Of a DNA stretch of 22,744 nt, positions 1,335-6,725 are shown one piece after another. The notes beneath the pieces were generated by a model. The model was not told the origin of the DNA. It ran no database searches and worked only from the letters and a program-made list of their open reading frames with translations. The position numbers were made by a program, and so were the translations under genes. This stretch comes from a virus, in IMG/VR virus record IMGVR_UViG_3300009504_000040, positions 1-22,744 of that record; one strand, given 5' to 3'. How positions within the stretch are numbered: position 1 is the stretch's first letter; every line of letters begins with the position of its first letter.

Positions 1335-2905
1335 ACGGTATATCTGCCACACACGATGTGGAGCTATTGAGAAACGAATACCTCGTTGAGCGGCTGATCG
1401 AGCTGGAGCTTGCGTTGGATAGCGAGGGCTGGATCAGTATGAGCGGGCTGGACGACAACAACGAGTTCACCCGTGCCGCGCTGCGCGAAATCCATAAGCA
1501 GGCTCGGCTCTACTACATCAAGAATCCGCTGGTGCGGCGTGGGGTGCAAATCCAGCGCCTCATGGTTTTCGGCCGCGGCATGAACGTCCGGGCCGCAGAT
1601 GAGGACGTCAACGCGGTAGTCCAGTCATTCATGGACGACGCGAAGAACCAAGCGGAGATGACGTCCTACCAGTCGATGGGCCAGAAAGAGACAGCACTTC
1701 GGATCGCCGGCAACCTGTTCTTTGTGTTCTTCGTTGACCCTAGCAGCAAGGGCCGCGTCTGGGTGCGCACAATTCCATTCGACCAGGTGGAGGAGATTGT
1801 CACCGACCCGGAGGACGCGAAGTCGCCGTGGTTCTACTTGCGGATGTACAGCCAGAGACTGCCGGAGGGTGGCACGCGTGACCAGAAGGTGGCATATCCC
1901 GACTGGCGCTACAAGCCGGCGCCGTCTGACAGAGTAGACAAGGTACGCGACTACGTCGTAGATTGGGGCCACCCGGTCTACCACGTGAAAACCGGCGGCC
2001 TTGATGACATGCGCTTCGGCGTGCCGGAGACGTACCCTGCTCATGACTGGGCGAAGGCGTATACGAAGTTCCTCGAAGACTGGGCGACATTGACGCGCGC
2101 CTACAGCCGCTTTGCGCACAAACTGACGGTGCCGGACAACAAGCAGATCGTCGGCGCACGGCAGCGGCTCGGGACAACCCTCGGCGACGGTAGTGCAGAG
2201 ACGAACCCTCCGCCGGTCACGGGGTCGGTGTTCATCCAAGGCGCGGGCACCGACTTGTCGGCAATCCGTATCGGCGGGGCCAACGTCAACGCGGAGGACG
2301 GCCGTCGGCTGCTGTTGATGGTCGCGGCTGCGATGGGTCTGCCAGACACGTATTTCGGCGATACAGCCATCGGGACGCTGGCGACGGCGAAGTCGCTCGA
2401 CCACCCGACAGAATTGCAGATGCGCGACCGACAATCACTGTGGGCCGACGTGTACCAGGGCATCCTCGGCTACGTTGTTGAGCAAGCGGTGAGATACGGC
2501 GCGCTGGCCGGCTCCGTCGAGGAAGAAGACGACGGCACGCCGATCATCACGCTGGAGATCGACCCGGAGACGAATGAACCGCGCGACGCGACGGTGTTCG
2601 TCGAGTTTCCGCCGGTCATGGAAGACGACCGCGGCTCGGTGATCGATGCGATTGTCAAGGCCGGCACGCTTGGCGGGAATCCTCTTGCCGGCACCATCGA
2701 CCAGCAGCACATGTCGCGGTTGCTGATGACGGCGTTGGGCGTTGACGACGTAGACGCAATCATGGACGAGTTGTACCCGGAAGGCGAAGAAGACGACGAG
2801 CCGCCGGCGGGAGCACAGGAGCTACCGAAGCTCGGCGAGTTTGCGGCGGCGTTGCAGGACTTGCGAATGCATCTGGCTGAATTACAAGATTCGGCGAAGG
2901 AGTAG
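1331..2905 (+). CDS. Portal protein
   Basis: This 524-residue protein is the dodecameric portal at the capsid vertex, the docking point for terminase and later the neck. The N-terminal segment around NPLVRRGVQIQRLMVFGRG is typical of the portal wing region. The stretch around residue 336 (GLPDTYFGDTAIGTLATAKS) followed by LQMRDRQSLWADVYQ matches the stem and clip region of portals of the kind seen in GC-rich Gram-positive phages. The C-terminus is acidic (EGEEDDEPP) and ends in a short helix. The start at 1331 has GAGGG at 1320-1324. Length and position after the terminase fit the family. Confidence 0.92.
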   Translation: MNGISATHDVELLRNEYLVERLIELELALDSEGWISMSGLDDNNEFTRAALREIHKQARLYYIKNPLVRRGVQIQRLMVFGRGMNVRAADEDVNAVVQSFMDDAKNQAEMTSYQSMGQKETALRIAGNLFFVFFVDPSSKGRVWVRTIPFDQVEEIVTDPEDAKSPWFYLRMYSQRLPEGGTRDQKVAYPDWRYKPAPSDRVDKVRDYVVDWGHPVYHVKTGGLDDMRFGVPETYPAHDWAKAYTKFLEDWATLTRAYSRFAHKLTVPDNKQIVGARQRLGTTLGDGSAETNPPPVTGSVFIQGAGTDLSAIRIGGANVNAEDGRRLLLMVAAAMGLPDTYFGDTAIGTLATAKSLDHPTELQMRDRQSLWADVYQGILGYVVEQAVRYGALAGSVEEEDDGTPIITLEIDPETNEPRDATVFVEFPPVMEDDRGSVIDAIVKAGTLGGNPLAGTIDQQHMSRLLMTALGVDDVDAIMDELYPEGEEDDEPPAGAQELPKLGEFAAALQDLRMHLAELQDSAKE

Positions 2906-2910
2906 AAAGC

Positions 2911-3405
2911 ATGGCGGAAAAGCACATCATATCTGGAAGCGTAATTAACGACGATACACCACTGGCGACCGAAGATCAGCGATTGCCGGCGAACCTCGGG
3001 CCGAGTGGAGGACTGGTCGTAGAAAGCATTCTGCCAGGCGGCCTGGTGATCGTTGCCAAAACCGAGCCGATGACAGATTGCATAGCCACGATCCCGAACG
3101 GCGAGACTATGTCGAGTGCCATCGACCTGCGCAATGTCGGCGTACCGGTTGCGTTGGTGATGCCGGCGGCGTGGACGGCTGCGGTGATAACAGCGCAGGT
3201 TGCCATCACTGGCGCGTCTTTCATCAATTTGCGAGACAGGTTCGGCACAGAATGGAGCGCAACAGTGGCGGCTGATCGTGGCGTAATTCTCGACCCTATC
3301 GATTTTCTCGCTTGGCGATACATCCGCCTGCGGAGTGGTACGGCAGCGGCGCCGGTTGCGCAAGGTGGAGAACGATCGCTACGTGTCGTAGCGAGGCCAT
3401 TCTAA
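2911..3405 (+). CDS. Putative virion-associated beta-rich protein, unknown function
   Basis: A 164-residue protein with AAGGAG at 2897-2902 before its ATG. It is rich in beta-prone residues. Segments such as VGVPVALVMPAAWTAAVI, a central NLRDRFGTEWSATV and the C-terminal WRYIRLRSGTAAAPVAQG resemble a beta-sandwich domain that recurs in hypothetical phage structural proteins. It has no signal peptide or membrane helix. It sits between the portal and the PKD-repeat gene, one base from the latter, so it may belong with the accessory, possibly surface-exposed, head proteins. The specific function is not recognisable; a minor head or fibre-base role is inference. Confidence 0.6.
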   Translation: MAEKHIISGSVINDDTPLATEDQRLPANLGPSGGLVVESILPGGLVIVAKTEPMTDCIATIPNGETMSSAIDLRNVGVPVALVMPAAWTAAVITAQVAITGASFINLRDRFGTEWSATVAADRGVILDPIDFLAWRYIRLRSGTAAAPVAQGGERSLRVVARPF

Positions 3406-4892: not shown

Positions 4893-6725
4893 ATGACACC
4901 GACTGAGACCATGCAGCTCATCGAAAAAGTGGAACGCGTCATCGAAGCCGCTACGCGTGCGTCGAAAGAGGCACGCATAGCACCGCTGGAAGCGGCGGCG
5001 GAGAAGCGCATCGCGTCGCTGTTTCGGCTGCAAGGTAAGGCGTTCAAACGCGAGGTAGACGCGGCGCGGCCGGCAGATGGTAGCGAACCGATCACCGAGG
5101 CGAAGGTCGACGAGCTGGAGCGACGGCTGGAGAAGGTGTTCATCGCGACGCTAAAGGAACAGTGGGACACATTCCAAGGTATCATCGAAGACGGGTTCGC
5201 GGCCGGCATCATGGACGCCGTCGAGCAGATGGGGCACAATCCTGATCTGCTGTGGCCACTGCTGGCGTTCGACGGACGGATGCAAGAATCGAATATTGAC
5301 CGCTTTCTAATGTTCCGGCTGGCGTTCAACTTGCGGTCACCTGGAGCGCGTGACTACATCGAGCACAGAAGCGCCGACTTGATAACTAAAGTCACTCAGA
5401 CGACCAAGGACCGCATAAGGCGACTGCTGATGGAGGGGTTTGACGAGAAGCGGAGCTACGATCAGACGGCCAAGGCGATCATACGTCTATTCCCGGAGAT
5501 GGCGATCGGCAAGCCGCAGTTGCACATCGACAGCCGAGCGCATCTGATAGCGGTGACGGAATGCTTCCCGGGCGATGTTCTAGTCGCTCCGTTTTCTCGC
5601 CCGATATCGCCGTTGCCTTTCCCTGGCTCGGGCGCGGCTAGCCTCAGTACTGGGTTTAGCTCCGGGTCTGAGTCTCCTATCAGATGGGCTGCGCGGCGTT
5701 GGTATGAGGGAGACTTGATCGAGATCGCAATGGCCAGCGGCAACAAGCTCACCGGAACCCCGAATCACCCTATACTCACCGATAGGGGATGGGTTGCTAT
5801 TGGCGCTTTGGCTAAAGGCGATTATGTCATCTGCTGCCGATTGGGAAAGCGGATGGCTATCAGTGACCCATGCGTAAAGGACATTCCAGCCGCATTCAGT
5901 GAGGTATTTGATGCGATTGAGAGCCGCCCGGGAGGAGCGGGCGCGAAGCGGGTTGCAACGCGTGACATGGATTTCCACGGCGACGGCAGGGATGGCTATG
6001 TCGATATTGTAGGGGCCAGCGGAGACTTGTTGCCTTACATTCAATCCCCGATCGCGAAGCCAGCCAGCCATGAGGTTTTCGCCATCGCCAACTTGTGTCA
6101 GTCTCCGTTCACGCGAAGCGCTCCTGTTGGCCAAGGCACGCGCAGATTTGGGGACACCCTTGCCCATGCGGGCAATCTCGCTCATCCGCCCCTTCGTGGC
6201 CGCGTGGGCATTGGCAAGATGGATATTTCGCTCAGCAGGCGAGCGCTTGGACCAAAAAAGCCGGAGGGCTTCCGAAGTATTGCGGATACGAACTCCGGCG
6301 CGTTTGAGGATTGTAGCGATACAGTCGTTGGAAACGCCATATCTGCGAGCAATTGCGCTCAGAGAATCTCCGGACAAATAACGTGTGATCGCATCGTTAG
6401 AGTCGACAGGAAACTTGGATGGGGGGGACATGTCTATAACCTCCATACTCGTTTCGGATATTATACAGCAAATGGCGTTATTGTGCAAAACTGTGGTAAC
6501 GCATACAGCGAAGGCGCGTACCAGGCCGGCGACAAGCTGAATCAGTCGGGGATCACGATGGAGAAGTCGTGGCTGACGTCAAGAGACGATAGGGTGAGCG
6601 ACGGTTGCGCTGAAAACGAAGATGCTGGGTGGATAGGGTTTTACGACGCGTTTCCGTCGGGACATCAACATCCGCTCAGGCATCCAGGCTGCCGATGTAG
6701 TCTCATGCAGCAGCCGGTACTGTAG
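4893..6725 (+). CDS. MuF-type (SPP1 gp7-like) minor head protein precursor containing an intein
   Basis: The 610-residue precursor would give a 300-residue minor head protein after removal of a 310-residue intein. The N-extein is helical and acidic or basic and runs to AHLIAVTE (residue 223). The C-extein (534-610) has the family end: SWLTSRDDRVSDGC, then HPLRHPGCRCSL. Together these are the MuF core (R.IA.TE, W.t..DdRV...C, HP.CRC), a protein bound inside the head near the portal. The intein interrupts the conserved TE motif. I chose ATG 4893, directly after the previous gene; the frame is open further upstream (to about 4632) but that region codes the previous gene in another frame. The sense frame stays open throughout, so the intein is not broken. 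Confidence 0.88.
   Translation: MTPTETMQLIEKVERVIEAATRASKEARIAPLEAAAEKRIASLFRLQGKAFKREVDAARPADGSEPITEAKVDELERRLEKVFIATLKEQWDTFQGIIEDGFAAGIMDAVEQMGHNPDLLWPLLAFDGRMQESNIDRFLMFRLAFNLRSPGARDYIEHRSADLITKVTQTTKDRIRRLLMEGFDEKRSYDQTAKAIIRLFPEMAIGKPQLHIDSRAHLIAVTECFPGDVLVAPFSRPISPLPFPGSGAASLSTGFSSGSESPIRWAARRWYEGDLIEIAMASGNKLTGTPNHPILTDRGWVAIGALAKGDYVICCRLGKRMAISDPCVKDIPAAFSEVFDAIESRPGGAGAKRVATRDMDFHGDGRDGYVDIVGASGDLLPYIQSPIAKPASHEVFAIANLCQSPFTRSAPVGQGTRRFGDTLAHAGNLAHPPLRGRVGIGKMDISLSRRALGPKKPEGFRSIADTNSGAFEDCSDTVVGNAISASNCAQRISGQITCDRIVRVDRKLGWGGHVYNLHTRFGYYTANGVIVQNCGNAYSEGAYQAGDKLNQSGITMEKSWLTSRDDRVSDGCAENEDAGWIGFYDAFPSGHQHPLRHPGCRCSLMQQPVL
5580..6431 (-). CDS. Antisense homing endonuclease (HTH plus Vsr/DUF559-like nuclease) nested in the intein
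   Basis: This 283-residue protein is encoded on the minus strand wholly inside the intein. The start is ATG 6431, preceded by GGAGG (6440-6444) with an 8-base spacer; the stop is TAG at 5580-5582, only 18 bases inside the intein's first codon. Residues 12-50 form a helix-turn-helix (ITRYLSGDSLSAIARRYGVS, then CIATILKRAGVR), like DNA-binding parts of homing enzymes. Residues about 117-206 look like a PD-(D/E)XK/Vsr-like core: LRDRGLNVRQQ, YNIDIAIPAVAVEIH with D144 and E153, RIKYLTECGWNVLYAWV. The C-terminus (264-283) is very Arg-rich. Codons align exactly with the sense codons, a register in which GC-rich genes often give spurious antisense frames. The domain content, ribosome site and promoter-like elements argue against that. 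Inferred role: cutting intein-less minor head alleles to spread the intein. A longer form from ATG 6446 is possible. Confidence 0.78.
   Translation of the reverse strand: MSPPSKFPVDSNDAITRYLSGDSLSAIARRYGVSNDCIATILKRAGVRIRNTSEALRLFWSKRSPAERNIHLANAHAATKGRMSEIARMGKGVPKSARALANRSASRERRLTQVGDGENLMAGWLRDRGLNVRQQVSAGPYNIDIAIPAVAVEIHVTRCNPLRARSSRAALNRIKYLTECGWNVLYAWVTDSHPLSQSAADDIIAFSQSANSNPSPIGEYRVIRGSGELVAAGHCDLDQVSLIPTPRSPSDRRLRPGAKPSTEASRARARERQRRYRARKRSD
6440..6488 (-). promoter_or_regulatory. Promoter-like elements and ribosome site for the antisense endonuclease
   Basis: Read on the minus strand: TTGCAC (6488-6483), a 17-base spacer, a perfect TATAAT (6465-6460), then GGAGG (6444-6440) and ATG at 6431. 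The -10 matches the sigma-70 consensus, the spacing is ideal and the -35 is weak (3 of 6). All of it lies within codons for the intein's C-terminal splicing segment YYTANGVIVQN, so regulatory and protein constraints overlap. Function is inferred from sequence only. Confidence 0.55.

Follow-up and report, generated by a model that had tools for sequence, protein, structure and literature searches.

The window analysed here is a 22,744-nucleotide stretch of viral DNA (IMG/VR record IMGVR_UViG_3300009504_000040) in which a minor head gene contains an intein, and the opposite strand of the intein contains a second gene (Table 1). The host gene is part of an ordinary head-tail module of the virus record, with terminase, portal, protease, decoration, major head, and tape measure genes as neighbours. 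Its product has head proteins as PHROG matches, and Pfam places Phage_Mu_F at residues 527-605 (E 1.2e-6) and Intein_splicing at residues 267-533 (E 8e-6). The sequence motifs of HINT inteins are present in the window: C1, T66-N68-H69, GHVYNLH, and VQN followed by Cys+1. In the sense alignment A3, residues C1, T66, N68, H69, H139, G140, D141, V291, Y292, and L294 are invariant. The Intein_splicing score is below the Pfam cut-off in the window and above it in relatives L018 and L010, and against the curated cut-offs the window's nuclease and intein Pfam matches are both sub-threshold. Searches of the sense reading between blocks B and F with Pfam, PHROGs, and NCBIfam found no in-frame endonuclease.

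Table 1. Features of the intein-containing head gene and of the gene on its opposite strand (positions in the window)
Feature	Position	Strand	Evidence
Host gene, MuF/SPP1-gp7-like minor head protein with intein	4893..6725	+	Pfam, PHROG, neighbours
Intein, 310 aa: Cys1 ... block B TPNHP ... block F GHVYNLH ... VQN, then Cys+1	5562..6491	+	Alignment A3, intein-free homologue
Block B T-x-x-H (TPNH), opposite YRVIRG at the end of the antisense protein	5757..5768	+	Sense T/H conservation
FHGDG...VDIV, mirror of the antisense active site; HGD at 5976-5984	5973..6011	+	Column tables, third-base freedom
Antisense gene, 283 aa, predicted homing endonuclease (HTH plus DUF559/Vsr-like nuclease), in register with the intein	5580..6431	-	Alignment A1, selection, hhalign
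Helix-turn-helix DNA-binding part (predicted)	6300..6392	-	HTH_28, HTH_7, PDB 2lvs
PD-(D/E)XK nuclease domain; D144 at 6000-6002, E153 at 5973-5975	5859..6065	-	REase_MTES_1575, DUF559
ATG start of the antisense gene; the complementary CAT is the His codon of block F	6429..6431	-	Codon skew
Shine-Dalgarno GGAGG of the antisense gene, within block F	6440..6444	-	Leu codon skew
Promoter-like -35/-10 (TTTGCA-18-TATAAT) upstream of the antisense gene	6460..6489	-	Consensus match only

The two strands are exactly in codon register. The antisense ORF extends over 5580-6488 from a TTG and over 5580-6431 from an ATG, the likely start being the ATG, and in both forms it shares codon boundaries with the sense CDS. 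This had been claimed in the initial annotation, and the catalytic residues D144 and E153, numbered from the ATG, also lie exactly where it had placed them. The length of the antisense ORF is weak evidence alone because the GC-rich window has six other minus-strand ORFs of at least 250 aa, and the open frame in the window was rejected as proof for the same reason. Given the window's Leu and Ser codon usage, the chance of an open antisense frame is about 1e-4. Mirror stops among Leu and Ser codons number 0 of 2244 in the overlaps and 382 of 2099 outside them, a contrast that is partly true by construction since the overlap is delimited by antisense stops. As openness proves little in a GC-rich window, the comparison with relatives is decisive.

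The same arrangement recurs in inteins of phages from many hosts. In each of the 44 loci collected first (20 from an IMG/VR scan and 24 from 126 matching phage records), the intein ORF is open in sense and an in-register antisense frame is open for 200 codons or more. Phages with this dual arrangement infect Salmonella, E. coli, Pantoea, Vibrio, Pseudomonas, Klebsiella, Haemophilus, Gordonia, Mycobacterium, Rhodococcus, and other hosts. Scanning IMG/VR by sense splicing motifs alone gave at least 509 relatives, of which the best 80 were kept and 52 distinct inteins parsed; every one of these 52 stays open in antisense for 200 codons or more. FHGDG-like segments do recur in phage minor-head inteins, as the initial annotation had suggested, and a common lack of an open antisense frame, which would have spoken against its proposal, was not seen among the 52. 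Its suggestion that databases may hold the same hidden gene is borne out by the 126 phage records and, for the 52 inteins in which the antisense strand was checked, by the IMG/VR relatives. In the opposite direction, 49 loci found through GPYNIDI were examined, and in every one a long sense ORF is open across the nuclease. Nearly all of them have a recognisable motif of block B, F, or G, and the motif search found no recognisable block F in a few loci. A scan of the genome collection returned a single strict match. Statistically, the relatives are not independent of one another, and the E-values of small scans are approximate.

The antisense nuclease is almost never annotated in relatives. In Salmonella phage vB_StyS-sam an antisense CDS that the submitter had annotated over the intein (1778-2179 plus, hypothetical protein) was considered as the nuclease and rejected, as its coordinates correspond to another frame. 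In two IMG/VR relatives, L018 and L019, the same intein and antisense nuclease are found in a non-MuF host protein (LGDC|VIAAM...), for which no Pfam family was found.

The antisense protein is related to nucleases and to DNA-binding proteins. HTH_28 matches residues 14-44 (E 5e-4), and HTH_7 is matched in 24 of 39 relatives (best E 3.5e-9). The antisense profile also matches PDB 2lvs in the HTH part (E 1.3e-7), and many relatives have two HTH units. REase_MTES_1575 matches residues 123-191 (E 6e-6) and is matched in 21 of the 39 relatives (best 2e-8), with DUF559 matched in seven. In independent libraries the HTH and REase_MTES_1575 matches occur in the antisense reading only. The profile built from 12 of the antisense proteins also retrieves free-standing DUF559 nucleases of unrelated bacterial genomes (best E 1.5e-11). 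With hhalign the antisense profile aligns to DUF559 at 97.8% (E 1.2e-12) over Q...GPY..D...VE...R...GW, while the sense profile gives 0.3%. Weaker PDB matches of the antisense profile are 3hrl, Vsr, and I-Bth0305I. Alignment A1, which has 39 rows of antisense proteins, shows M1, Y141, N142, D144, E153, and R173 to be invariant. By its D...E core and profile similarity, the antisense product is classified as a predicted member of the DUF559/Vsr-like PD-(D/E)XK superfamily. It shares the Q...GPY..D...VE core and downstream R with the DUF559, REase_MTES_1575, and Vsr-like nucleases, including I-Bth0305I (PDB 3r3p), but it adds N-terminal HTH repeats. The segment after the catalytic E also differs, being E-V-D-G-x-Q-H in DUF559 and E-I-F/H-G-G-x-W-H in the antisense family, where some members lack it.

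Substitution patterns assign the constraint on the nuclease core to the antisense strand. Codon position 3 of the antisense frame (sense position 1) is the fastest in the overlap, while in the exteins the fastest is sense position 3. Single changes were counted in DNA alignments of seven close, independent pairs, with nearly equal opportunity for both classes. In the nuclease core, 210 changes are synonymous in antisense and nonsynonymous in sense and 48 are the reverse (p 1e-27), and the direction is the same in all seven pairs. The flanking extein control gives 27 versus 300, and the region under the N-terminal blocks of the intein gives 33 versus 43. The initial annotation had called for a comparison of purifying selection on the two readings, and by these counts the antisense nuclease is under the stronger selection. 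Judged from substitutions, the antisense frame is an overlapping protein-coding gene under purifying selection beyond the level that the sense protein explains.

It is hardly credible, then, that the antisense ORF is a by-product, an in-register frame that stays open in a GC-rich gene and whose conservation is a shadow of the sense protein. The six other long minus-strand ORFs of the window fit such an origin, and at block B the antisense conservation truly is a sense shadow: the T and H are almost or fully invariant, while the antisense residues opposite (222 and 225) vary. However, the strand-specific substitutions and the speed of the antisense-synonymous position in the core refute a by-product, and the nuclease homology belongs to the antisense reading and not to the sense. 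Antisense frames also stay open in relatives from genomes of 40-50% GC, and another phage intein, that of FoX3, has 12 in-register antisense stops.

The sense motif FHGDG...VDIV lies over the nuclease active site and is a mosaic of sense and antisense constraints. YNIDIAIPAVAVEIH mirrors DFHGDGRDGYVDIV. Antisense residues Y141, N142, D144, and E153 are invariant in 59 of 59 distinct relatives, while their sense partners merely swap (V/I, I/V, V/I, and F/L, respectively). The pattern is different at HGD. The third bases of A151 and V152 are free in antisense, yet they are 98% one base. By comparison, the T and H of block B reach 100%, and most other four-fold antisense columns 28-51%. In column 150 the antisense residue may be V, I, L, or T, and the sense Asp is kept. 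Because HGD is fixed at antisense-free bases, it is a sense-side motif over the nuclease active site. The initial annotation had proposed that conservation of the sense motif may be imposed by the nuclease and not by splicing. This stands for F (opposite E153) and for VDIV (opposite Y141-D144), and a purely antisense origin of FHGDG is rejected for HGD by the third-base test. The converse, in which the motif is purely a sense element, for instance for splicing or folding, and the nuclease adapted to it, is improbable: the constraint on HGD and the invariance of H139, G140, and D141 in A3 agree with it, but F and VDIV vary within antisense synonymy and the antisense residues do not vary. HGD is conserved as strictly as the T-x-x-H of block B, and it may have a structural or splicing role in the intein. 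A second small sense-driven island, F-x-x-L at 5907-5918, is found about 20 codons before HGD, with variable antisense residues.

Block F of the intein contains the start codon and Shine-Dalgarno sequence of the antisense gene. In block F (GHVYDLQ) the start codon is opposite His and the Shine-Dalgarno sequence is opposite D/N-L-Q. The His codon is CAT in 37 of 39 relatives and in 37% of cases elsewhere in the same genes (p 4e-14). Relatives with Gln (CAA) in place of His have TTG as the antisense start, and those in which His is written CAC have GTG; both are usable start codons. The Leu codon opposing the Shine-Dalgarno sequence is CTC in 29 of 35 cases against a background of 22% (p 5e-14). 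The promoter-like pair matches the consensus at 10 of 12 positions, and three such pairs occur in the region against 0.6 in shuffles. The antisense gene is presumably expressed.

Empty sites, alternative sites, and a replaced nuclease favour homing. The homologue in Methanoculleus virus Blf4 is intein-free, with LIAVTE joined directly to AAEAY at the window's insertion site. The Kagunavirus phages Snoke and fEg-Eco06 have near-identical minor-head proteins with inteins at different positions, each being empty at the other's site. In the examined loci the antisense gene lies opposite an open sense ORF, and it is absent from the empty alleles, which is the pattern looked for in a resident homing gene. 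The MuF intein of Gordonia phage Nordenberg (MH976514) has a different antisense ORF (2004-3083 minus), and it occupies the site of the DUF559-type element in the sibling phages Vivi2 and Fosterous. Pfam finds nothing with the whole of this ORF, and when trimmed it matches phrog_5046 as a LAGLIDADG-like endonuclease (E 1.3e-15), with a weak match to I-MsoI. Relatives of the phrog_5046 type are annotated as endonucleases in other phages, and this second type of antisense endonuclease is also present in Sitar, Lennon, Thing3, SchottB, and Barsten. An unrelated antisense endonuclease at the same Gordonia site is as expected for replacement of one homing endonuclease gene by another.

The locus is best interpreted as a mobile intein within the minor-head gene of a phage, with a putative homing endonuclease gene on its other strand and the two readings matched codon by codon; from the sequence data we give this a probability of about 0.88. 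The antisense gene could be real and instead be HTH-nuclease cargo, a defence or regulatory protein sheltering in the intein. DUF559/MTES_1575-like domains are indeed found in large non-homing proteins as well (open frames of 1855 and 1996 aa). Cargo is nevertheless quite improbable, given that the antisense gene is found essentially only within inteins, at several insertion sites and in several host genes, and that the sibling Gordonia phages have an unrelated antisense endonuclease at the same site. A PADLOC defence search gave no match, and a defence protein was rejected as a candidate for this reason.

Under the preferred reading, the mobile intein with its antisense homing endonuclease would work as follows. 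The sense strand would encode the minor-head precursor, from which the intein should splice itself out, and the segment from block B to block F would be a mostly passive linker in sense, save for the conserved HGD. The HTH plus DUF559/Vsr-like nuclease would be translated from its own Shine-Dalgarno sequence and start codon within block F. Its presumed targets are host-gene alleles that lack the intein, and repair of the break could copy in the intein together with its antisense gene.

The arrangement resembles several known systems but differs from each of them. In-frame mobile inteins of the PI-SceI type likewise have HINT blocks A, B, F, and G, a nuclease between blocks B and F, and a sporadic distribution with allelic presence and absence. 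Here the nuclease is on the opposite strand, has its own start, and is unfused, and the sense insert shows no nuclease. Dassa et al. are said to have described, in 2009, split inteins in fractured genes with Vsr-like homing endonucleases; in that system the endonuclease gene reportedly lies between the two split halves and is not nested antisense in a continuous intein. Some group I introns have antisense homing endonuclease genes (I-DsqI, Dir.S956-2), for which an internal promoter was proposed (PMC9548176). They share the placement of the gene on the strand opposite the splicing element, but there it is inserted in RNA loops without protein-coding constraint, while here both strands code, codon for codon. 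The ShiLan-type HNH insertion in phage methylases contains an out-of-frame nuclease (PMC11855218); there, too, an open insertion in a phage gene conceals the nuclease in another reading frame. It differs in being a shifted-frame HNH on the same strand, with no splicing domain and no Shine-Dalgarno sequence found. In the literature searched, antisense homing endonuclease genes were found in group I introns only (PMC9548176), along with the same-strand, out-of-frame HNH that lacks splicing blocks (PMC11855218).

Nesting of antisense homing endonuclease genes is probably widespread and recurrent in phage inteins. It would involve at least two unrelated families (DUF559/Vsr-like and LAGLIDADG-like phrog_5046), with block F serving as ribosome binding site and start and with HGD and the active site overwritten on each other. 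If this is true, there is a hidden class of mobile elements, with a full nuclease gene opposite inteins annotated as plain linkers, and hundreds of phage head genes are concerned, including those of well-studied Salmonella, E. coli, Pseudomonas, and Gordonia phages. The loci would be a clear natural example of two functional proteins encoded antisense to each other over a long stretch, with constraint assignable base by base to either reading, and also a source of compact HTH-nucleases. They are a warning that conservation in intein linkers may originate from the opposite strand. Priority for the actinophage members is uncertain: PMC11855218 cites a preprint on non-canonical actinophage inteins (Gosselin, Arsenault, Gogarten; bioRxiv 2025.01.02.630785), which may overlap with these results. 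In the Rhodococcus phage REQ3 the antisense ORF is shortened and the HTH part is lost, and this copy is perhaps a decaying element.
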